A stretch of 64,000 bases of DNA from Aedoeadaptatus coxii (lineage in GTDB: Bacteria; Bacillota; Clostridia; Tissierellales; Peptoniphilaceae), in NCBI RefSeq assembly GCF_001553115.1, contig NZ_KQ960155.1:62001-126000 (forward strand), read 5' to 3'. Position 1 is the stretch's first letter; each line of letters starts with the position of its first letter. The translations under genes and the position numbers were made by a program. Below are positions 20,778 to 32,424 of this stretch, piece after piece. The notes under the pieces were generated by a model. That model did not search any database. It saw nothing but the letters and a program-made list of their open reading frames with translations, and was not told the origin of the DNA.

Positions 20778-22508
20778 CTATATCTGATAAAGTTTATCGC
20801 CATAAAGGTCTTCCTTTGACCATTCAATGACGGCTAGTTTTCCTGAAGTGTGATCTAATATTTTGTTAATCCACTTAACTTCTTCATTTGCTTTAGAAGA
20901 TAACATCTTGTTGCTGGGATTTGCTTTAAACAGGGATGAATTGACAATCCACCAATTTGTATGAATTGATGCCCTTTTTAAATCTTCTTCTAGTCGATAT
21001 GCCTCATAAAATGGGGTAGCCTCTGCCAAGCTAACGATTAATACTTCTGTTTCCTCTCCTCTTAATCTAGGTAACAATTTTTTTACAGAGTTCGGTATCT
21101 GTCCTTGTGTTCTTTCAACTTCTTTATGATAACTTAAAGTTGAGTCTAACAACAGCAAGGTATGACCCGTGGGAGCAGTATCAATCACCACTATTTCATC
21201 GTCCGCTTTTTCCACAAGCTCTGCAAAAGCTCTAAATACAGCTATTTCCTGTGTACATGGTGATCTTAAATCTTCTTCAATATAAGCTACATCATCCGCA
21301 CTCATTGTTTTTCTTGCATTTTCAAGTACTTCATCTTGATACTTTTTTAATTCTTCTTTTTCATCAATATGACTCATAGATATTCTGCTGGAACTATCTA
21401 CCATATATTTTATATGGTCGGCCGGATCTGTCGTAGCTAGGTGTACTTTTTTACCCAGTTTGCTTAGCTTGAGAGCAACAGAAGATGCAATAGTAGTCTT
21501 TCCTACACCGCCCTTGCCCATAGTAAAGATTACTTTTCTATTATTTTTTACAAGATCACTGACAACATCATCTAAATTAAAGAGTTCGCCTTTTACTTCC
21601 ACTTTTTGTTCATTTATTTGATCTTTCTTAAGGAGATTTCTTATAGAGTCAATTCCTGTAATGTTATATGATCTCAAGGCAATTGTATAGGTATCAAACT
21701 GAGTTAACATATCCGGCATATTTTCAAGGGCTAACTTTTGTTTGTTAAATATATTTTCAGATAAGGCATCATCATAATTTTCTAAGACACCATTAATCAC
21801 TAATATTTGATTTTTTACTCCAATCTCAGATAGCTCCTTTGATGCTCTGGCTACCTCATTAAGTGGTGTTTTATCAGGCCTTGTAACTAATGCCAGGGTT
21901 GTTAAACTCTTGTCTGCTAAATTTTCAACTGCCTTTTTATAAGTTTCTTTTTTAACGTCTAATCCTGATAACTGTCCTAAACAGGATGCTCCATGCGTAC
22001 TTTCACTAATAAAATTAGTCCAAGCAGAAGGAAGCTGTAACATTCTAAGGGTATGACCCGTAGGTGCTGTATCAAATATAATATGGTCATAGTCTGTATT
22101 AAGCTTAGAATTTGTAATAAAATTAGAAAACTCATTAAAGGCAGCAATTTCTACTGTACAAGATCCGGATAACTGTTCTTCCATATTCTCAATAACAGAA
22201 TCAGGCAATTTGCCCCTAAAAGGTGCTACTACACTTTCTTTATAATTATGTGCCGCTTCCAATGGATCCAGATTGATTACTTCTAAATTATCTACTCCTT
22301 TAATTGGCTTAGCTTTACCGTCCAATTCTGTTTCAAAAACATCTTGTAAATTTGAAGCAGGGTCTGTACTAATGAGTAGTACTTTCTTTCCCTCATCCGC
22401 TAAAGTCACTGCCGTTGCACAAGCTGTAGATGTTTTACCAACACCTCCCTTACCTGTGAAAAATAGATATTTAGTTAATTTAATATCCGCAAGATTAAAT
22501 TTCTTCAC
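20778..22508 (-). CDS. arsA: ArsA, arsenite-stimulated ATPase
   Basis: A 576-residue duplicated ATPase. Two P-loops are clear, GKGGVGKTSTA near the N-terminus and GKGGVGKTTIA near residue 330, each followed by DTAPTGHTL. Metal-binding cysteines appear in SGSCTVEIAAF, SCLGQLSG and SPCTQEIAVF. It is the energising subunit for arsenite efflux. I chose the GTG at 22508 because GAGGGGG lies six bases before it; this start overlaps nothing and lies just after the arsD stop. Confidence 0.94.
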   Translation of the reverse strand: MKKFNLADIKLTKYLFFTGKGGVGKTSTACATAVTLADEGKKVLLISTDPASNLQDVFETELDGKAKPIKGVDNLEVINLDPLEAAHNYKESVVAPFRGKLPDSVIENMEEQLSGSCTVEIAAFNEFSNFITNSKLNTDYDHIIFDTAPTGHTLRMLQLPSAWTNFISESTHGASCLGQLSGLDVKKETYKKAVENLADKSLTTLALVTRPDKTPLNEVARASKELSEIGVKNQILVINGVLENYDDALSENIFNKQKLALENMPDMLTQFDTYTIALRSYNITGIDSIRNLLKKDQINEQKVEVKGELFNLDDVVSDLVKNNRKVIFTMGKGGVGKTTIASSVALKLSKLGKKVHLATTDPADHIKYMVDSSSRISMSHIDEKEELKKYQDEVLENARKTMSADDVAYIEEDLRSPCTQEIAVFRAFAELVEKADDEIVVIDTAPTGHTLLLLDSTLSYHKEVERTQGQIPNSVKKLLPRLRGEETEVLIVSLAEATPFYEAYRLEEDLKRASIHTNWWIVNSSLFKANPSNKMLSSKANEEVKWINKILDHTSGKLAVIEWSKEDLYGDKLYQI

Positions 22509-22519
22509 AATGAACCCCC

Positions 22520-22897
22520 TCAGCAACAAGAGCTATTGTTTCCACAGCACCCTTGATTTGGTTTTTCATCTTCTCTATTTTCAAGATACTCTTTAGAGAT
22601 TTGTAAAAGTTCCATTATTTCTTCGTTTTTTGGATATCTACCTTCTATGACTATATCGTCGTCCACAAGGATTAATGGCAGCCTATCGGTTCCATTTTTA
22701 TCCAAAGCTTCTTTTACCTTGTTATTATTTACAAATGCCATTGGCTCACTAGATAGATTGTATCTTTCAATAGTGATGCCATTTTTCTTCAAGTTGTTAA
22801 TTACTGTAGAAATACGTACGAGTTCAGGATCTACATTAACTCCGCAAACACCTGTATCACAACACATAGCCGGTTCATAAATTGACATTCTTTTCAT
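22520..22897 (-). CDS. arsD: ArsD, arsenite metallochaperone
   Basis: A 125-residue protein with a thioredoxin-like fold that delivers As(III) to ArsA. The conserved Cys12, Cys13 and Cys18 (MCCDTGVCGV) are present, and two further vicinal pairs, Cys117-118 and Cys124-125, close the C-terminus. Length is typical. It lies between arsR and arsA, separated from arsR by about 100 bases holding an ArsR operator copy. Confidence 0.93.
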   Translation of the reverse strand: MKRMSIYEPAMCCDTGVCGVNVDPELVRISTVINNLKKNGITIERYNLSSEPMAFVNNNKVKEALDKNGTDRLPLILVDDDIVIEGRYPKNEEIMELLQISKEYLENREDEKPNQGCCGNNSSCC

Positions 22898-22941
22898 TTT
22901 TTACACCCTTTCTTCAGTTTCTTAAATTGAATTTTATTGAT

Positions 22942-22961
22942 ACATCAAATCCTTTTGATGT
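22942..22961. promoter_or_regulatory. Second ArsR operator, upstream of arsD
   Basis: Perfect inverted repeat ACATCAAA-TCCT-TTTGATGT, the same arms as the operator before arsR. It sits in the arsR-arsD gap. Confidence 0.8.
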
Positions 22962-22974
22962 GAAGAGTCTTTTT

Positions 22975-22998
22975 TTAGTTACCCTTAAGGGTAACTAA
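22975..22998. repeat. 24-bp palindrome overlapping the arsR stop codon
   Basis: TTAGTTACCC-TTAA-GGGTAACTAA is a perfect palindrome whose arm includes the arsR stop codon. On the ars mRNA strand it is followed by A residues, not T, so it is not a normal terminator in that direction. Confidence 0.6.
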
Positions 22999-23276
22999 TT
23001 ACTTGCTGTACATTCTAAAAACATCTGTATTATTTCTTGTCTTCCTTGTTCAGATATAGTGTAGTAAACCCACTTGCCTTCATCTCTTGCTGTAACAATT
23101 CCTGACTCTATCAATATTTTCATATGGTAAGACAAGCCTGATTGTGTTAAATCTAGTTTTTCCAATAAATTACAGGCACATTCTTCCCCATTTTTTAATA
23201 AATCTAATATTTCTAGACGAATCGCCACAGAAAAGGCTTTAAATATCTTTGCAGTTTTTACTAAATCTCTGTTCAT
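22995..23276 (-). CDS. arsR: ArsR arsenite-responsive repressor
   Basis: A 93-residue winged-helix repressor of the ArsR/SmtB family. The metal site CAC (Cys33, Cys35) lies in EECACNLLEKL, and the recognition helix is in LTQSGLSYHMKILIESG. It probably represses its own operon by binding the two ACATCAAA inverted repeats; the promoter-proximal one lies just after the -10. As(III) binding would release it. First gene of arsR-arsD-arsA-arsC-acr3. Confidence 0.94.
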   Translation of the reverse strand: MNRDLVKTAKIFKAFSVAIRLEILDLLKNGEECACNLLEKLDLTQSGLSYHMKILIESGIVTARDEGKWVYYTISEQGRQEIIQMFLECTASN

Positions 23277-23911: not shown

Positions 23912-23940
23912 GAAAAAGCCGGCGTATGCCGGCTCTTTTT
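23912..23940. terminator. Terminator after Ddl-like gene
   Basis: AGCCGGC-GTAT-GCCGGCT with an A run on the left and a T run on the right. On the minus strand its T tract lies 13 bases before the glutaredoxin start. Confidence 0.8.
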
Positions 23941-25483
23941 ATCTGTTTTCAAGTAGTCGTAACCGTTCTTCCAGTGCGTGAACACGGCGTTCCAAGGCGC
24001 GGTAGCGCGCGTCGGCTCCGTCTTCTTTTGCCACGCCGTAAACGGCTTCGTCGCGGATTTCGGGAGCGTCTTTTTCTCGCCTTTCGGCTTCTTCCGCTTC
24101 AGCTTCCTCTGCATAACGAACTAAATAATCTACGGTGTCGTCTCGCTTTTGGGCGGCGCGACGCTTAAAGTCTTCCGCTTTTTCCCGGGCATCTTGCGCT
24201 GCCGATTGGAAGCCTTCTTTTATTTCATAAGCTTTGTCTTCCCCGCGATTTTTTAATTCATAAGCCTTCACTTCCGCATCATCCATGGCATCCGACACGC
24301 GATCTCTCAGTTCGTAAGCTTTCGCTTCCCCTTCCTTCGCGGCGGATTGTGCGTTTTCTTTTAAGCGATCCATTTCCTCGGAGGCCATGGCCTTGTATTC
24401 GGCACTTTTGCGTTTGGCTTCCCGTTGAAAATCGTCGAAGGCACGCTTTGCTTCTTGATCGAAGCGGCGGCGATAGGCGCTCTGCGCTTTTACCCGCGCT
24501 TCTTCCTGTTCTTCGTGCCGTTTGGCGCGAATGCCGTCTACATCGCCTTTTTTACCGTCGTCTCGCAAGCCTTCCCGCTTGACGGCAATGTCCACGATGG
24601 TTTGAATTAGTTCGTCGTAGCCTATCCCATCTTCTTTCGCCGCAGCGGCAAACAAGCCCTCGGGATGAAAGTCGACGGCGCTCTTTAGCCCGTAAACGTA
24701 CGCTTTTTCTTCGTTTACTTTCATAGCGACGACGGCGTAATCGCGCATTTGTAAAAGATCAAATACCTTCGCCGCAAGAGCCTTCGCCTCGTTCATATGC
24801 GTGTCTTGGAGATCTGCCGGCGTGGCGCAAATGCCCTCTTCCCCGTCGGGATCCTCTACGAGAACGAGCGGCGGCAAGACCGTCTTCTCATCGCCATTTC
24901 CGAGGACACTAAAGAGAACGTCCTCCCCTTCTATACTTTCCATTAAAAGAAGCTCTTCTCCTTCTAAAAGACGAGGGGTCGCCTCTTCTAAAAGTTCTTC
25001 TTCGTTCAAAACCAATGCGCCGTCACCACATTGGGAAAGGATGCCTTCGGAAGCATTCATAACCACTAAGGGATACGCCGGGGAAAGGCCGGCAAGCGCC
25101 ACGGGATTTTCCGCCAACCACATGGTGGGATGGGGAATATGGTTTCTCGAAAGAATTCCCGTCATCAGGCCGCGATCCGATGCGATCCCCTGCCCCATGG
25201 CATTGCTTCCGGCAAAGGGAATATCCAAGGAGTTGAGGAGAGCGGGCAGTTCGCCCACGTCGTCGGGATTGACATTTCCCTTGGCGAGTATGAAAGCCAA
25301 ATCGATTTTGTCTTCCCGCAACTTTTCGCCGAGGGTATCGTCGAAAATATAATCGATGACATCGTAGCGATCTTTTAGTGCATTCTCGATGGAGCGGGCC
25401 ACTTTGTCCTGCTCTCTTTCCTTTATATGATTTTCCGATCCTTTGTCGATTCTGAATTTATCCTTAATAATGCCAATTCGCAT
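23939..25483 (-). CDS. Ddl-like ATP-grasp pseudoenzyme fused to long charged helix
   Basis: A 514-residue protein. Residues 1-303 follow the D-alanine--D-alanine ligase plan: LPALLNSLDIPFAGSNAMGQ, then the ATP-grasp part from YPLVVMNASEG to about 300. Key positions are changed: the ATP-binding lysine of VKPAS is Met142 (VMNAS), MDK is SDR (102-104), and the metal-binding NEIN is YGLK (264-267). It is therefore probably inactive as a ligase. Residues 304-475 form a highly charged Ala/Glu/Lys-rich helix with repeats KAYELRD, KAYELKN, KAYEIKE, and 490-514 a short leucine coiled coil. It is cytosolic, with no signal peptide, 56 bases after carB. Function unknown. Confidence 0.75.
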   Translation of the reverse strand: MRIGIIKDKFRIDKGSENHIKEREQDKVARSIENALKDRYDVIDYIFDDTLGEKLREDKIDLAFILAKGNVNPDDVGELPALLNSLDIPFAGSNAMGQGIASDRGLMTGILSRNHIPHPTMWLAENPVALAGLSPAYPLVVMNASEGILSQCGDGALVLNEEELLEEATPRLLEGEELLLMESIEGEDVLFSVLGNGDEKTVLPPLVLVEDPDGEEGICATPADLQDTHMNEAKALAAKVFDLLQMRDYAVVAMKVNEEKAYVYGLKSAVDFHPEGLFAAAAKEDGIGYDELIQTIVDIAVKREGLRDDGKKGDVDGIRAKRHEEQEEARVKAQSAYRRRFDQEAKRAFDDFQREAKRKSAEYKAMASEEMDRLKENAQSAAKEGEAKAYELRDRVSDAMDDAEVKAYELKNRGEDKAYEIKEGFQSAAQDAREKAEDFKRRAAQKRDDTVDYLVRYAEEAEAEEAERREKDAPEIRDEAVYGVAKEDGADARYRALERRVHALEERLRLLENR

Positions 25484-25539: not shown

Positions 25540-28500
25540 TCACGCCTCCTTGGAATAGTCGTCTAATTCGTAGATCGTAACGTCGTCTTCCAAAGGATTG
25601 TTTTGCAGGGTTTCCACATATACCTTCGCCTTATCTAAGTTGGTGAAAAGTTCCACGTCACATTCGATGGCGTTTCGGCGAATCAGGAAGCCGTCGCGCT
25701 TGGAGTCGTTGCCCTTTGTCGGCGTGTTAAATACCATGTCGATTTCCCCTTCTTGAATCAGGTCGATCATGGTTGGCGATTCTTCGCCGATGCGGCGTAC
25801 TTCTTCGGCGGCGATGCCGTTTGCTTCCAGGAAGGATTTCGTGCCTTTGGTGGCGAGGAAGCGAACGCCGACGGCTTCGAGATTTTTCGCAATGGGAAGG
25901 AATTCTTCTTTATCCCGATCGCGAATGGTGCAAAGGACATTGCGCATGCGCTTGGTAATATCCGTTCCCGCCGCCATAAAGCCCTTGGCCATTGCTTCTT
26001 CTTCCGTTGCGCCGACGCCTAAGACTTCGCCGGTAGAGCGCATTTCCGGCCCAAGAGAAGCTTCCACTCTATGAAGTTTTTCCGTAGAGAACACGGGGAT
26101 TTTGACGCAGGTTAATTTGCTGAGTTTGCCGATGCCCGTCGAGTATCCCATGGATTTTAAGGATTTGCCGAGCATCACTTTGGTGGCAAGTTCCGTAATA
26201 TTGGTTCCCGTTACTTTGGAGAGATAGGGCACGGTTCGCGAGCTTCTCGGATTCACTTCGATCATGTAGAGGGTTTCGTCTTTGATGATGTATTGGATGT
26301 TGATCATGCCGATGACGTCGAGGGCGAGGGCCACTTTTTTCGTGGCGTCTAAAATTTCCTCTTCCATTTTCGGGCTGATGTTGCGGCTGGGATAGATGCT
26401 GATAGAGTCGCCGCTATGGACGCCGGCGCGCTCCAAGTGTTCCATCACGCCGGGGAGGTAGACGTCGGTGCCGTCGGAGATGGCATCCACTTCACATTCC
26501 ATGCCCTCGATGTATTGGTCGATTAACACCGTGCGCTTCGGTTCCATGGCGAAGGATTCTTCCAGATAGTAGCGGAGATCGTCGTCATTCATGCAAATTT
26601 CCATGCCTTGGCCGCCGAGGACGTAAGAGGGGCGCACGAGTACGGGATAGCCGATGGATTTTGCGCCTTCCATTCCCTCTTCCACGCCGTGAACGCCGAT
26701 GCCCTTCGGGCGGCGTAGATGTAATTCTTCCAGCATAGCATCGAATTTTTCCCGGTCTTCCGCCCGGTCGATGGCGGTGGGATCGGTACCTAAAATGGGC
26801 ACGCCTTTTTCTTTGAAAATACCGGCGAGTTTAATGGCCGTTTGGCCGCCGAATTGAAGAATCACACCGTCGGGATTTTCCTTTTCGATAATGTTCAGCG
26901 TATCTTCCGCCGTCAAGGGCTCGAAGTATAATTTGTCGGAAATGTCGAAGTCCGTGGACACAGTTTCGGGATTGTTGTTGATGATAATGGTTTCGTAGCC
27001 TTCTTTGCGCAGCGTCTTGACGCAGTGTACGGAAGCGTAGTCGAATTCCACCCCTTGGCCGATACGAATGGGGCCGCTGCCGATGACGATAATGCGCTTT
27101 TTGTCTTTCGTTACAGGCGATTCGTCTTCCCCTTCGTAAACCGAGTAAAGGTAATTGACGCGGGCGTCGGCGAGGCCGCCTTGTGTGTCAACCTTGCGGT
27201 AGCGGGCGTGAATTCCGAAGAGTTTACGAAGTTCTCTTACGAAGTTTTCGCTTACATTTAATCGGGAGGCGATGATTTCGTCACTAAAGCCCATTTGCTT
27301 CATTTCGCGAAGTTTGTCTTCGTTTAAATCTTCTTTCTTCATGGATTCTAACTCCGCTTCCACATTGACGATGTGTTTAATAATGCGGAGGAAGTAGGCG
27401 TCCATACCCGTTTCTCTGGAAAGGCGGGAAATGTCGTAGCCCGTGTTTACAAGAGCTGCCAGGTAGAACAGCCGCTCGTCGTTCGGACGCTTGACGTTTT
27501 CTTTCAGCGTGGCGATGTCCATGTTTCTGAAGCGTGGGTGGAGCAAGCTGAAGGCACCGATTTCCAGGGAACGCAACCCTTTTAATAGGGCTACTTCAAA
27601 GGTTGAGCCGATGGCCATAACTTCCCCGGTGGCCATCATCTTCGTGCCTAAATTTCGGTCGGCGTTAAAGAATTTATCGAAGGGCCATTTGGGAAGTTTG
27701 ACGACCACGTAGTCGATGGAAGGTTCGAACGCCATGGAAGGGGTGCCCGTCACTTTGTTTTCGATTTCATCGAGGCCGAGACCCAACGCGATTTTCGCCG
27801 CCACGCGGGCGATGGGGTAGCCCGTGGCCTTGGATGCCAGTGCCGATGAGCGGCTCACCCTGGGGTTGATTTCGATGACGGCGTATTGCAGACTGTTGGG
27901 CTCGACGGCAAATTGCACATTGCAGCCCCCTTCGATTCCCACTTCTTCGATAATGCGGAAGGCGGCTTCTCTAAGCATGCCGTGTTCCACATCCGTCAGG
28001 GTTTGTGTCGGCGCCACGACGATGGAATCGCCGGTGTGCACGCCGACCGGGTCGATGTTTTCCATATTGCAGACGCAAATGCAGGTGCCCTTGGAGTCGC
28101 GGATCACTTCGTATTCGATTTCTTTCCAGCCCGTAATGCATTTTTCGATCAGGACTTGGCCGACGCGGGAAAGGTGAATCCCGGCGTGGGCGATGGTGTG
28201 GAGTTCTTCTTCCGTTTCGCAAATGCCGCCGCCGGTTCCACCGAGGGTAAAGGCCGGGCGCACGACGACAGGGTATCCGATATGTTTGGCGTAGGCTACG
28301 GCGTCTTCCACCGTTTCCACGGTTTTCGATTCGATAATGGGCTCGCCGATTTTTTCCATTAATTGGCGGAACTCCTCTCTGTCTTCCCCGCGCTTAATGG
28401 AGGGAATGGAGGTGCCGATAATGTCGACGCCGTATTTTCCCAAAATGCCGGAATCGTAGAGTTCGATGGAAAGATTGAGGCCGGTTTGGCCGCCCATGCC

Positions 28501-28764
28501 GGCGATTAAAGCGTCGGGGCGTTCCTTGGCGATGATTTTTTCGATGACCTCCACCGTCAAAGGCTCGATATACACTTTATCCGCCACTTCTCTATCGGTC
28601 ATAATCGTGGCGGGATTGGAGTTGACGAGGACGACTTCCACACCTTCTTCTCTTAAGGATTCGCAGGCTTGGGTCCCGGAGTAGTCAAACTCGGCGGCCT
28701 GACCGATGACGATGGGGCCGCTACCGATGACGAGTACTTTTTTAATGTCTTTTTTACTATCCAT
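25540..28764 (-). CDS. carB: Carbamoyl-phosphate synthase large subunit
   Basis: A 1074-residue enzyme of normal length making carbamoyl phosphate from bicarbonate, two ATP and ammonia. It has two ATP-grasp halves, each opening with a GSGPIxIGQ loop (residues about 14-21 and the equivalent near 560), metal-binding [12 protein letters not shown] and [12 protein letters not shown], and a C-terminal MGS-like allosteric domain from about 940. Catalytic sites look intact. It lies eight bases after carA and closes the pyrimidine genes. Because the adjacent CarA lacks its glutaminase residues, this subunit may be fed by free ammonia. Confidence 0.97.
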
Positions 28765-28772
28765 GATGCCTC

Positions 28773-29813
28773 CTAAGCCAGCTCTTTTAATTGTTTTAAT
28801 TGTTCGTCCAATAAATCCGTCGCCCCCGGTAGACCGAAGGGATCGAATAAGACGCCGTACGCTTTTTGTTCTTTACTCCAAAAACCTTCCACATTGCCGT
28901 CACCTACGTGGGTGTAGGTTACCGCGACGGAATCCGGCAAGTTTTCAATATAGTAATCGTGGTTTTGGCTCGTCATATACACCCGATCCTCTTCTCCTTT
29001 TACGGGAATGGATGCGCCGGCATGGGGCTTATTTAATTTTTGCAAGACGCCGCCGAGGGCGAGGCCTAAAAATTCCGCGCCGAGGCCGATGCCGTAAATG
29101 GGAAGCTTGCCGAGCATTTGCCCTACGTCGTGAACGATGTCCAGGTAATGAGCGGCAAAGCCCGGGCCCGAGCTTAGGAATAAAATGTCGGGATTGTCTT
29201 TTAAAATATCTTCGTAATTGGTCATGGCCGGGTAGACGATAATGCGGTAGCCTTCGTCGCTCAGCTTTTCCAAGATGCCGTCTTTTACGCCGAAATCCCA
29301 AAGGGCGATGGTCTTCCCTTCCCCTTCGATTTCCGTCACTTCGATAGTGGATACGGCTTCGATGGTGTTGGGGTTTTGTTCTGCAAAAAATTCTTCCATT
29401 TCAGAAGGGGTCAACAGCCGCTCGGTAATAACCGCCCGTTGGGCGCCGTTTTCATTTAAATGGCGTACGAGGCCGCGAGTGTCCACTTCCTCGATTCCCA
29501 ACACATCGTAGTAATCTAAGTATTCTTTTAAATTCATTTCGCTTCTGAAATTCGTCGCGTCATCCATGGCGCGGCGGCAAATAAAAGCGGAAATCGTGGG
29601 TCCCTCGGCTTGATTATCTTCAAAATTCATGCCGTAACCGCCGACGAGGGGATAGGTAAAGAGCAAAATGCGCCCTAAATTACTTGGATCGGTCATAACT
29701 TCTTCGTGGCCGATCATGGCGGAAAATACCATGAGCTTTCCGCCTACCGATTCCTTACTTCCGCTAAACTGCTTGCCTTTAAAGACAGCTCCGTCTTCTA
29801 ATTGAATATACAT
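28773..29813 (-). CDS. carA: Carbamoyl-phosphate synthase small subunit, glutaminase triad lost
   Basis: A 346-residue CarA homologue with the N-terminal subunit-contact domain (1-160, [21 protein letters not shown]) and a class I glutamine amidotransferase domain (165-346). The nucleophile motif GICLGHQ is GIGLGAE, so the catalytic cysteine is Gly243, and the His-Glu pair of HPE is Asp324 and Phe326 (FDPFGLPG). SNGPGDP is also changed to SSGPGFA. It cannot hydrolyse glutamine by the known mechanism. It remains in frame, full length and in the operon, so it probably survives as a structural partner of CarB. Ribosome site GAGGGGCAA precedes the ATG. Confidence 0.93.
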
Positions 29814-29824
29814 TTGCCCCTCCT

Positions 29825-30721
29825 CTAAATGATTCCGCGAATGGCATCGAGAGATTCGATACCTTCTTCTTTCATATACTCTTCCAGCTCATCTAAAAGC
29901 CTCGGTATAATACCGGGCTCGACTAAATTCATAGTTCCGATTTCCACGGCTTGCGCTCCCGCCATGATCATGGCGAGTACATCCTCCGCCGAGGCGATGC
30001 CGCCGATGCCCACCACGGGGATATTGACGGCTCGCGACGCTTCCCGCACCATGCGCAGGGCAATGGGAAAAATGGCGGGCCCCGAAAGTCCGGCGTAGAC
30101 ATTGTCGAACATGGGCTTTTTATTTTTCACATCGATGGCAAGGGCCTGAAAGGTGTTGACGAGGCTCACGCTGTCGGCTCCCGCTTCTTCGCAGGCCTTG
30201 GCGAGATCCGCCACATTGTCTCCGTTGGGAGAAAGCTTGACGATCACCGGGTGGCGGGTTTTGGCTTTTACTTTTTTCGTAATGGCCGCCGCATCCTGGC
30301 AATGAAGGCCGAAGGCCATGCCGCCGCTTTTAACATTGGGGCAGGAAATATTCAGCTCGATCATGTCGATGTCCGCCCCGTCTAATTTTTCCGTGGCGAT
30401 CAGATAATCCTCTACGCTGTGGCCACCTAAATTCGCCATAATCACCGTATCTCGTTTGCGCATGTCGGGCAAAATGTTTTCGATGAAAGCGTCCACCCCG
30501 GGGTTTTCCAAGCCGATGGAATTCATAATCCCGGAAGGGGTCTCCACGATGCGAATGCCTCTATTCCCAGGCCTGGGATTCAGCGTCAGCCCCTTTGTGG
30601 AAATGGCGCCCGTCAGTGCCGGATCGTAAAAGGAAGCGTACTCCTCGCCGAAACCGAAAGTTCCCGACGCGCCGATAAGGGGATTTTTAAGTGTCTTACC
30701 GCAAAGCGTGGTCGTTAGCAT
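29825..30721 (-). CDS. pyrD: Dihydroorotate dehydrogenase, NAD-type catalytic subunit
   Basis: A 298-residue FMN TIM-barrel enzyme oxidising dihydroorotate to orotate. The class 1B catalytic cysteine is in ELNISCPNVKSGG, and FMN phosphate contacts are in VGIGGIASAEDVL. The start ATG at 30721 lies inside the pyrK 3' end (26-base overlap) after GGGAGGGCGGTAT. It works as a heterotetramer with PyrK, passing electrons to NAD+. Third gene of pyrB-pyrK-pyrD-carA-carB. Confidence 0.95.
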   Translation of the reverse strand: MLTTTLCGKTLKNPLIGASGTFGFGEEYASFYDPALTGAISTKGLTLNPRPGNRGIRIVETPSGIMNSIGLENPGVDAFIENILPDMRKRDTVIMANLGGHSVEDYLIATEKLDGADIDMIELNISCPNVKSGGMAFGLHCQDAAAITKKVKAKTRHPVIVKLSPNGDNVADLAKACEEAGADSVSLVNTFQALAIDVKNKKPMFDNVYAGLSGPAIFPIALRMVREASRAVNIPVVGIGGIASAEDVLAMIMAGAQAVEIGTMNLVEPGIIPRLLDELEEYMKEEGIESLDAIRGII

Positions 30722-31391
30722 ATACCGCCCTCCCTTCAAATACCGGCCCGTCTTTACAAATGCGTTTTCGCTCGCCTCCCGCTTCGCAGGTGCAGGCGAG
30801 GCAGGCGCCGAATCCGCAACCCATTCGCGATTCTAAGGACACATACACGTCGCCCTTCGCCTGCTTCACCGCGCCTTCCATCATAGGCCGCGGGCCGCAG
30901 GTAAAGATGACCTCGTCGTCGATGGTCAATTCGTCGAAAATATTATTTCCGATATAAAACCTTACCCGATCGCCGTAGGGCGCATAAATTGCTTCGAGTT
31001 TCGGGTTTCGCTCCCGTAAACCGATGGCGACTTTCAATTTTTCCTCTGTATCTCCTTCCAGTAAATGAAGGGAAGGGGCGATGCCCGTGCCGCCGCCTAT
31101 GTAAAGAGTATCTCCTTCAATGGCGGGGAAGCCGTTTCCGAAAGGCCCCTCCGTTTGGATCGCATCTCCCGGCAATAATTTTTTTAGTGCATCCGTGCCG
31201 CCGCCGACGGTCTTTATTAAAAAGGAGAGAATCCCTTCTCTTAACGAAAACACAGAAATGGGGCGTCCTAATAATTTGGAATGGTCCTTTGGCTTCAGCA
31301 TGAAAAACTGGCCGGGCTTTGCCTCGCCGTCGTAGGCGAAGCGCAACACATACAGACCGTCGCCTAAGTCGTTATTTTCCAGCAGCTGCAT
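30696..31391 (-). CDS. pyrK: Dihydroorotate dehydrogenase electron-transfer subunit
   Basis: A 231-residue ferredoxin-reductase-type subunit with FAD-binding RPISVFS, NAD-binding GGGTGIAPSL and the C-terminal 2Fe-2S ligands CGFGACLACTC plus a later cysteine (RICKDGPVF). It accepts electrons from PyrD and reduces NAD+. It overlaps pyrB by 20 bases and pyrD by 26, so translation is tightly coupled. Confidence 0.95.
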   Translation of the reverse strand: MQLLENNDLGDGLYVLRFAYDGEAKPGQFFMLKPKDHSKLLGRPISVFSLREGILSFLIKTVGGGTDALKKLLPGDAIQTEGPFGNGFPAIEGDTLYIGGGTGIAPSLHLLEGDTEEKLKVAIGLRERNPKLEAIYAPYGDRVRFYIGNNIFDELTIDDEVIFTCGPRPMMEGAVKQAKGDVYVSLESRMGCGFGACLACTCEAGGERKRICKDGPVFEGRAVYANDHALR

Positions 31392-32295
31392 TTTTCGCCT
31401 CCAATAGGGTTAGGATCAGGGCCATGCGCATATACATACCGTTTCGCGCCTGCTTGAAATAGAGCGCCCTCGGGTCGTCGTCGATGGCCGCGTCGATTTC
31501 ATCTACTCGCGGAAGGGGATGGAGCACAATTAAGTCCTCGGAGGCACTTTCCATAACCTCGGGATTTAAAAAGTAGCTGCCCTTGTAGCGTTCCGCCTCT
31601 TCCTCGCTAGAGAACCGTTCTTTTTGCACGCGGGTCATGTAGAGAACATCCAACTCGCCGATCTCCCCTTTTAAATCGTCCACTTCTTTATAAGGGCATT
31701 TGGCGTGATCCAAATAGATCGTCGGCATTTCCAAGCCTTCCGGCGCGATAAAGACAAATTCATTATCGTAATCGTTTAAGAAATTGTAGAGGGAGTGAAC
31801 GGCGCGTCCGTAACGTAAATCGCCGCAAAAGCCTATTTTTAAACCCGACCATTTTCCCTTTTGATCGCGAATGGTGAAAATGTCCGCCAAGGTTTGGGTC
31901 GGATGGGCGTGATCGCCGTCGCCGGCGTTAATGAGGGGCATATTTTCGAGAACGCCTACCGTTTCCGATTGAGTATAAGGCACGGGATGGCGCATGGCGC
32001 AAATGTCGGCGTATTGATCCACGATGTGGAGGGTGTCCCTTACCGTTTCGCCCTTTGCCATAGACGACACCTTTACATCGCCTAAGTGCAGCACCTGTCC
32101 GCCTAAACGGTACATGGCGGCGTCGAAGGACATGCGCGTCCTGGTCGAGGGCTCAAAAAAAAGACTGGCTAAAATCTTTCCGTCGCACGCATGGGCGTAA
32201 GACGATGGATTTTTTGCAATATCTGCTGCCAGTCTAAATAAATCATCATACTCTCTCTCGTTGAAGTCACTCGATTCTATAAAATGTCTGAGCAT
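31372..32295 (-). CDS. pyrB: Aspartate carbamoyltransferase catalytic subunit
   Basis: A 307-residue transcarbamoylase joining carbamoyl phosphate and aspartate. It has the carbamoyl-phosphate motif FFEPSTRTRMSF, RHPVPYTQSE, NAGDGDHAHPTQTLAD and the C-terminal HPLPRVDEI. The start is the ATG at 32295 with TAGGAGGCCGT; upstream in-frame codons belong to the leader terminator. It heads the pyr operon and is preceded by an attenuator. No PyrI gene follows it; pyrK comes next. Confidence 0.96.
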   Translation of the reverse strand: MLRHFIESSDFNEREYDDLFRLAADIAKNPSSYAHACDGKILASLFFEPSTRTRMSFDAAMYRLGGQVLHLGDVKVSSMAKGETVRDTLHIVDQYADICAMRHPVPYTQSETVGVLENMPLINAGDGDHAHPTQTLADIFTIRDQKGKWSGLKIGFCGDLRYGRAVHSLYNFLNDYDNEFVFIAPEGLEMPTIYLDHAKCPYKEVDDLKGEIGELDVLYMTRVQKERFSSEEEAERYKGSYFLNPEVMESASEDLIVLHPLPRVDEIDAAIDDDPRALYFKQARNGMYMRMALILTLLEAKNAAAGK

Positions 32296-32299
32296 ACGG

Positions 32300-32424
32300 C
32301 CTCCTATAAAAAAAGCTTTTATCAGGGATAAAAGGCACAAAGAGAGACCCTTCCCTTTGGGGAAAGGTATATTCTATTTTGCAACCTTTTTAGTGTCTCG
32401 CACTAAATTAAAAGTATCTTGTCT
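32300..32424 (-). promoter_or_regulatory. pyr operon leader attenuator
   Basis: The leader ends in a terminator GCCTTTTATC-CCT-GATAAAAGC with seven T residues (32336-32308), directly before the pyrB ribosome site. Upstream, AAAAGG (32390-32385) can pair either with a nearby ACCUUU or with the CCTTTT arm of the terminator, so alternative folds are possible. A further hairpin TTTAGTG/CACTAAA lies near the 5' end. I do not recognise the PyrR-binding consensus. Confidence 0.7.

Follow-up and report, generated by a model that had tools for sequence, protein, structure and literature searches.

A carbamoyl phosphate synthetase small subunit without its glutaminase triad in Aedoeadaptatus coxii, and recurrent loss of the CarA glutaminase in Clostridia

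The small subunit of the carbamoyl phosphate synthetase (CPS) of the human-associated anaerobe Aedoeadaptatus coxii, CarA, has lost the catalytic triad for glutamine hydrolysis. Its gene is intact and under purifying selection, the adjoining carB encodes a synthetase subunit with conserved catalytic residues, and sequence comparisons revealed that the loss has recurred in Clostridia and is linked to changes in CarB. In bacteria, CPS is generally regarded as glutamine-dependent, and a switch to ammonia is known from vertebrates, where it is tied to the urea cycle. It is probable that the CarAB described here is ammonia-dependent and that its triad-less CarA is a structural partner, the bacterial equivalent of the glutaminase domain that vertebrate CPS I keeps in an inactive state. 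CarA would have lost glutamine hydrolysis, yet would still fold and dock on CarB. CarB would convert free ammonia via carbamate to carbamoyl phosphate for PyrB, and CarA would be retained for a structural or conformational role, keeping CarB in its productive form.

The carA gene, its operon and its genome

The window, i.e. the whole stretch of 64,000 nucleotides that was analysed, contains an operon with the gene order pyrB-pyrK-pyrD-carA-carB, all on the minus strand. The features are:

31372..32340, minus strand: pyrB, aspartate carbamoyltransferase, the consumer of carbamoyl phosphate (TIGR00670, 315.6 bits, above the cut-off)
30696..31391, minus strand: pyrK, electron-transfer subunit of dihydroorotate dehydrogenase (NF000798, 178 bits, below the cut-off of 219)
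29825..30739, minus strand: pyrD, catalytic subunit of dihydroorotate dehydrogenase (NF005574, 391 bits)
28773..29813, minus strand: carA, CPS small subunit without the glutaminase triad, full-length open reading frame of 346 amino acids
29085..29087, minus strand: carA codon GGC for Gly243, the nucleophile position (Cys269 in E. coli)
28842..28844, minus strand: carA codon GAT for Asp324, at the position of E. coli His353
28836..28838, minus strand: carA codon TTC for Phe326, at the position of E. coli Glu355
25540..28764, minus strand: carB, synthetase subunit of 1074 amino acids, both ATP-grasp sites intact (NF003671, 1479 bits; TIGR01369, 1463 bits)

A preliminary description of the region had reported that an intact, full-length carA in the pyr operon lacks the triad. 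This was borne out by the codons and by phmmer alignments with E. coli CarA (1c30 and 1a9x), in which Gly243, Asp324 and Phe326 pair with Cys269, His353 and Glu355; 1c30 is the C269S mutant and thus has Ser at position 269. The frame is open, with pyrB, pyrK and pyrD upstream and carB downstream. The protein consists of a CPSase_sm_chain domain (121 bits) followed by a class I GATase domain (69.9 bits; Pfam), which, together with the adjoining carB in a pyrimidine operon, characterizes a CPS small subunit. It scored above the cut-off of the general CarA model NF009475 (282 versus 221 bits). It scored below that of the "glutamine-hydrolyzing" model TIGR01368 (263.2 versus 307.35 bits), a weak criterion that is passed by 22 of 23 CarAs without nucleophile from other Clostridia. 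Of the features of a glutamine-hydrolysing CPS (CPS II), the Cys nucleophile, the His and Glu of the HPE motif and a TIGR01368 score above the cut-off are all missing. The combination of an inactive glutaminase part with an intact synthetase part would be that of an ammonia-specific CPS, and the single fused polypeptide of vertebrate CPS I is represented by two separate genes. An AlphaFold model of CarA, built with 14 sequences, had a mean pLDDT of 83.5 and matched E. coli CarA with a TM of 0.86 and the N-terminal moiety of CPS1 with a TM of 0.83, so that the CarA fold is predicted to be kept.

It was verified that CarB has intact catalytic motifs, as had also been claimed. At 27 positions of E. 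coli CarB, which we take to be catalytic, the CarB of the window is identical at 23, and the other four (208, 210, 242 and 754) also vary in enzymes with an intact CarA. Across 84 distinct CarBs the catalytic positions were kept, the exceptions being positions at which intact enzymes also vary and a single truncated row. Residues C232, A251 and A314, which presumably form the ammonia gate, were invariant in 60 CarB rows, including orphan CarBs from genomes without CarA. Directly downstream of carB a protein of 514 amino acids is encoded (23939..25483, minus strand), which combines an ATP-grasp part resembling D-Ala-D-Ala ligase with a long, charged C-terminal half; a relative is located at the same place in genome G064 (L191:11456-12742). 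Near the pyr region an arsenic cluster (window 20778..23276, minus strand) contains an ArsA ATPase (583 amino acids) and an ArsD (125 amino acids, 165 bits), together with an ArsR/SmtB-type regulator (93 amino acids; NF033788, 79.7 bits).

The genome (1.84 Mb in 30 contigs, 99.07% complete) was searched for a second carA, a check that the preliminary description had proposed, and none was found; carA is single. At E 0.001 the CarA profile detected only GuaA and PyrG besides CarA. Both, named by NCBIfam, keep their catalytic residues (GICYGMQ and QFHAE in GuaA, GICLGMQ and QFHPE in PyrG), and thus glutaminase loss is not common to these two class I amidotransferases. PyrB was the one carbamoyltransferase match at E 1e-30, and a carbamate kinase was not found at E 1e-20. 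The glutamine synthetase is of type III (GSIII_N, 237.7 bits), and its presence indicates that a lack of glutamine was not the reason for the loss in CarA. Loss of glutamine synthetase had been considered as a driver in Aedoeadaptatus and was dropped, because the genome has a Gln-synt_C match and this type III enzyme. Among 130 genomes of the family Peptoniphilaceae, a type I GlnA match at E 1e-20 was found in one and none exceeded the cut-off, while Gln-synt_C matched in 74 and gave no match at E 0.001 in 56. Loss of glutamine synthetase may have been the driver in those genomes with a triad-less CarA that have no Gln-synt_C match (G058, G060, G067, G070 and G088).

Occurrence of the loss in Peptoniphilaceae and other Clostridia

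In all eight genomes of the genus the carA frame is open and of full length and has Gly at the nucleophile position, encoded by GGC in seven and by GGA in one. The nearest CarA of the genus is that of Peptoniphilus nemausensis (92% identity), and the set also includes Aedoeadaptatus coli, pacaensis, urinae and ivorii, among others. In the family, CarA exceeded the NF009475 cut-off in 18 of the 130 genomes, matches below it being counted as other amidotransferases. All 18 have Gly at the nucleophile, and their His/Glu sites read FDPF, FDPL, FQAE, FHPK, FQPC, YKPV, FQPE or FYPE, so that none is glutamine-capable by its residues. The alignment of relatives thus revealed a clade-wide loss, and a sequencing error, which the preliminary description had named as a possible refutation, is excluded by the Gly in 18 of 18 CarAs.

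CarB was present in 34 of the 130 family genomes, 16 of which had no CarA above the cut-off. These orphan carB genomes comprise 14 of genus g36 and two of g2 (L179-L182, L184-L186 and nine more). In the seven of the 16 orphan neighbourhoods that were read (10-16 kb each) no relative of the PyrB, PyrK, PyrD or CarA of the window was found near carB; PyrC, PyrE and PyrF were outside this search. A pyrB above the cut-off was found in 123 genomes of the family, including all 34 with carB, and carbamate kinase matches in 94. Only two genomes (G021 and G088) have both carB and arcC, while 32 have carB only, 92 have arcC only and four have neither (Fisher p 1.2e-23, kinship ignored); this exclusion is partly inherited within genera and does not represent 130 independent events. 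As all 34 carB genomes have pyrB and 32 are devoid of carbamate kinase, CarAB is the likely source of carbamoyl phosphate. From the gene content, the family seems to make its carbamoyl phosphate either with carbamate kinase or with a CPS that has no glutaminase.

The search was extended to 249 genomes of the order Tissierellales, 55 of which have CarA at E 1e-30. In the 37 of these outside the family, 33 CarAs have the Cys, three do not (Ala in G145, Ser in G146, Gly in G244) and one was unreadable. A scan of 67 named loci yielded 51 with Cys, one unreadable and 15 without Cys, namely 13 of Peptoniphilaceae, an Oscillospiraceae metagenome-assembled genome (MAG) and a Peptacetobacter MAG. In a sample of the class, CarA was found in 262 of 391 genomes. 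Besides the family members, 17 high-scoring CarAs were read and 30 low-scoring ones, which were picked by E-value without being exactly the bottom 30, and hence the counts describe selected CarAs and are no class frequencies. The nucleophile was readable in 28 of the 30 low-scoring CarAs, and it was Cys in five and another residue in 23 (18 Gly, two Asp, two Glu, one Ala); the high-scoring CarAs had Cys, His and Glu in 17 of 17. Each of the 23 genomes without the nucleophile has one CarA match at E 1e-30, at a completeness of 65-98%. In G557 (L253), one of the five low-scoring genomes with Cys, CarA has kept the Cys and lost His and Glu (C, N and S at the three positions), which possibly represents an early stage of glutaminase loss. 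An unexpected fusion of CarB and DapF was observed in L250 and L260, in which CarB carries at its C-terminus a domain similar to diaminopimelate epimerase (DAP_epimerase, about 193 bits in both). Open frames of 1339-1366 amino acids in L253, L261-L264, L268 and L285 resemble this fusion by length only.

The number of losses was derived from CarB trees, which were calculated by a quick method with SH-aLRT as the only support. With 60 rows, the glutamine-capable state needs six changes, all forced by starred, i.e. well-supported, branches; with 87 rows 13 changes were found between glutamine-capable and not, ten of which are forced. The changes are read as losses because a regain of the whole triad is implausible. 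The trees contained 17 and 14, respectively, of the 18 triad-less family genomes, and eight and seven of the 16 orphans. Neither tree includes G006, in which CarB is truncated at the end of a contig. From the second tree three genus rows were dropped, and three near-relatives of G404 were removed as well. The sister group of the clade of the window (clade I, 13 rows in the 60-row tree) consists of two intact rows of Alkalibacter type, and that of the orphans consists of Peptostreptococcaceae, with five intact rows and the triad-less Peptacetobacter MAG. A further family group, clade II (G056, G058, G060 and G067), stands apart from clade I and the orphans, at a position that the 60-row tree did not settle. 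Its operon order (L187-L190) is pyrB, a gene of about 425 amino acids (dihydroorotase pyrC in the one tested), carA, carB, pyrK, pyrD; this differs from the order in the window, in line with a separate origin of clade II CarAB. One ancient loss for the whole family was rejected, because with 87 rows the family CarBs fall into three places, each beside glutamine-capable outsiders. The CarA tree, which has long branches, gave seven changes, only four of them forced. By these sequences, loss of the bacterial CarA glutaminase is recurrent; it is a state found repeatedly in Clostridia and not the peculiarity of one species, which goes beyond the preliminary description.

Evolution of the triad-less CarA and linked changes in CarB

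In six pairs within the genus the dN/dS of carA was 0.058-0.12, compared with 0.038-0.10 for carB, 0.034-0.11 for pyrB, 0.07-0.22 for pyrD and 0.04-0.19 for pyrK; the frames ran from stop to stop, so that some codons before the start are included. Thus the triad-less carA is under purifying selection, within the range of its neighbour genes. Relative to CarB it evolves about twice as fast as CarA does in intact pairs, the median CarA/CarB distance ratios being 1.31 for intact enzymes (350 pairs), 2.68 for clade I (78 pairs), 2.69 for clade II (six pairs) and 2.67 for G145/G146 (one pair). The GATase domain is the faster part in clade I (3.16 versus 2.26 for the N-domain, relative to CarB), while the values are 1.28 and 1.22 in intact enzymes. 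Among the residues that were assumed to line the glutamine site, S47 was kept in three of the 13 clade I rows, H312 in six, G313 in none and Q273 in ten, showing a drifting pocket, and N311 was kept in all 13.

Changes in CarB were analysed in 385 columns that are conserved to at least 90% in 31 intact rows (E. coli numbering). Columns 36, 181, 258, 261 and 352 were lost in at least three of four lineages (clade I, clade II, orphans, G145/G146). The random expectation for such columns is 0.11, and five were never reached in 20,000 draws, which ignore rate differences among columns. The Peptacetobacter MAG, which was not used in choosing the columns, is changed at three of the five. For a held-out set, 22 of the 23 triad-less and the 17 intact class genomes were fetched, and CarB was found in 20 and 15 of them. 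The triad-less rows were changed at one to four signature positions (five rows at only one) and the intact rows at zero to two (Mann-Whitney p 1.9e-5; kinship ignored, four of the 20 from one genus). In Fisher tests 352 ranked first of the 385 columns (18/20 versus 2/15), 258 third (14/20 versus 2/15) and 261 sixth (8/20 versus 0/15), whereas 36 (9/20 versus 5/15) and 181 (6/20 versus 2/15) did not separate the two groups in this set. Columns 97, 561 and 444, which are not part of the signature, also ranked high, indicating that relatedness contributes. In ten independent pairs on starred branches, discovery lineages included, a signature of at least three changes went with the loss in a mean of 7.7 pairs, and no pair pointed the other way (median sign-test p 0.008); for 258 or 261 alone the numbers were 6.5 and none (p 0.03).

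Signature changes also occur in the 31 intact rows, at three of the five positions in L089, at two in Oscillibacter and at one in eight others. Only 36 and 181 are changed in the Oscillospiraceae MAG, just as in the intact Oscillibacter, and position 258 is changed in two intact Peptostreptococcus rows as in the Peptacetobacter MAG. The clade of the window shares its change at 36 with the intact sister rows, so that those at 261 and 352 are left as its own. At 352 the change is mostly from Leu to Ile or Val. In an alignment, human CPS1 differs from the usual bacterial residues at 258 and 261 and not at 36 and 352. Residues 258-262 follow the gate residue A251, a relation taken from the sequence order alone. 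Taken together, the linked changes suggest a retuning of the enzyme.

The eight orphan CarBs that were compared have lost 12 columns that are conserved beside an intact or a triad-less CarA, 11 of them within residues 1-400 (Fisher p 0.0056). In a published study the carboxyphosphate and oligomerisation domains are named as those in contact with the CPS small subunit (PMC6245113). Clade I CarBs keep E39 and E40 in 11 of 13 rows each, and K214 and E260 in 13 of 13. The residues eroded in orphans are thus mostly kept beside a triad-less CarA, and this pattern of conservation would fit docking of CarA and a scaffold role. With intact enzymes alone as the reference, the orphan excess in residues 1-400 was weaker (17/23, p 0.033), and two controls were biased in the opposite direction (Oscillibacter/Lachnospiraceae 2/19, p 0.0007; G143a 4/27, p 0.0002), as was clade I compared with intact enzymes plus orphans (0/5, p 0.029). 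Compared with intact enzymes, clade I (6/13), clade II (12/20) and G145/G146 (9/12) showed no significant bias in this region. As the controls are mixed, the domain bias alone is not a clean docking test. Some relatives do without CarA, as the orphan CarBs show, and the claim of an essential scaffold is weaker for it.

Ammonia as the probable substrate, and comparison with known systems

The interpretation of the preliminary description, i.e. that carbamoyl phosphate is made from free ammonia and that CarA serves as a scaffold or allosteric partner, was supported overall; we infer ammonia use, docking and the scaffold role from the sequence comparisons described above. Use of free ammonia by CarAB is most likely also the situation in vivo. 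Aedoeadaptatus is, as we assume, an amino-acid-fermenting anaerobe, and with amino acid fermentation ammonia should be plentiful. Against this reading counts that E. coli CPS, as stated in passages of the study cited above, uses ammonia only at very high concentrations (PMC6245113).

An alternative source of ammonia would be another glutaminase, a stand-alone class I amidotransferase that docks in place of or beside the triad-less CarA. Glutaminase subunits are shared among amidotransferases, and glutamine is probably made by the type III synthetase. However, the only candidates found with the CarA profile (E 0.001), GuaA and PyrG, are both large and have their own synthetase part, and the same pattern was seen in many lineages, each with a single CarA match at E 1e-30, which makes this explanation improbable. 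It is similarly hard to believe, and slightly more so, that CarAB is out of use and decaying in a cell that takes up pyrimidines. The faster evolution of CarA relative to CarB and the family members without CarA or without CarB above the cut-off would agree with decay, but the dN/dS of 0.06-0.12, the open full-length frames in eight of eight genus genomes, the intact CarB, the conserved operon and the pyrB in 34 of 34 carB genomes argue against it. Least credible of all is a remaining hydrolysis of glutamine or another amide in the altered pocket by a different chemistry, in which Asp324, for instance, would act as a base. In its favour, Asp or Glu recurs at the triad positions and N311 is retained throughout the 13 clade I rows; yet the nucleophile is a Gly, S47, H312, G313 and Q273 drift, and the GATase domain is the part of CarA that evolves faster.

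Beyond the ammonia-dependent CarAB with CarA as a structural partner, a wider and rather doubtful idea can be put forward. It would hold that the switch is common and repeated in fermenting Clostridia, that CarB was remodelled at 258-262 and 352 for free ammonia, and that certain lineages, those with Asp or Glu at a triad position, reuse the former pocket for glutamine as an ammonium-binding entry port to the old tunnel.

The closest known counterpart is vertebrate CPS1, in which the glutaminase part is also kept but inactive; its substrate is ammonia, as we infer for the CarAB of the window. According to parts of a structural report, Cys is replaced by Ser in CPS1, glutamine is not used, and the structure suggests an alternative ammonia path, which may also exist in E. 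coli CPS (PMC4655335). In the same source CPS1 is a single fused chain, which depends on N-acetylglutamate and works in urea synthesis (PMC4655335). In contrast, the bacterial enzyme has two separate subunits, is encoded in a pyrimidine operon, has mostly Gly at the nucleophile, and its state arose several times. With E. coli CarAB (CPS II) it shares the two subunits, the domain order and the conserved catalytic residues of CarB, but it has lost Cys269, His353 and Glu355; laboratory mutants of Cys269 (C269S, 1c30) are an artificial counterpart. The CPS III of Alcolapia fish also shifted convergently from glutamine to ammonia; as far as described in parts of that study, it keeps the triad and has an altered glutamine-binding residue (PMC7657897), whereas here the nucleophile itself is gone. 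Carbamate kinase (ArcC; Pyrococcus, Thermococcus) likewise makes carbamoyl phosphate without a glutaminase and is a different enzyme, according to sections of a 2018 review (PMC6022934). The small CPS of Methanobrevibacter smithii is described there as of the ATP-grasp kind, with 41 kDa and as a dimer of synthetase units, and thus without a glutaminase part (PMC6022934). It is archaeal and of half size, while the orphan CarBs are full-length relatives of ordinary bacterial CarB. In those sections bacterial CPS is placed under CPS II, with a glutaminase part (PMC6022934). Titles and abstracts retrieved in a literature search held no report of a bacterial CarA without the nucleophile; older biochemistry could be missed in this way. 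Both precedents, CPS1 and Alcolapia CPS III, are from vertebrates, and to judge from this search the bacterial case, with its unusual recurrence, would be new.

The switch of CPS from glutamine to ammonia thus appears to have happened many times in anaerobic bacteria. Intact, triad-less and absent CarAs exist side by side, and this is a natural experiment on why an inactive glutaminase is kept and which changes in CarB suit ammonia. As 22 of the 23 class CarAs without the nucleophile pass the NCBIfam "glutamine-hydrolyzing" model, name-based metabolic models would assign the wrong nitrogen donor.
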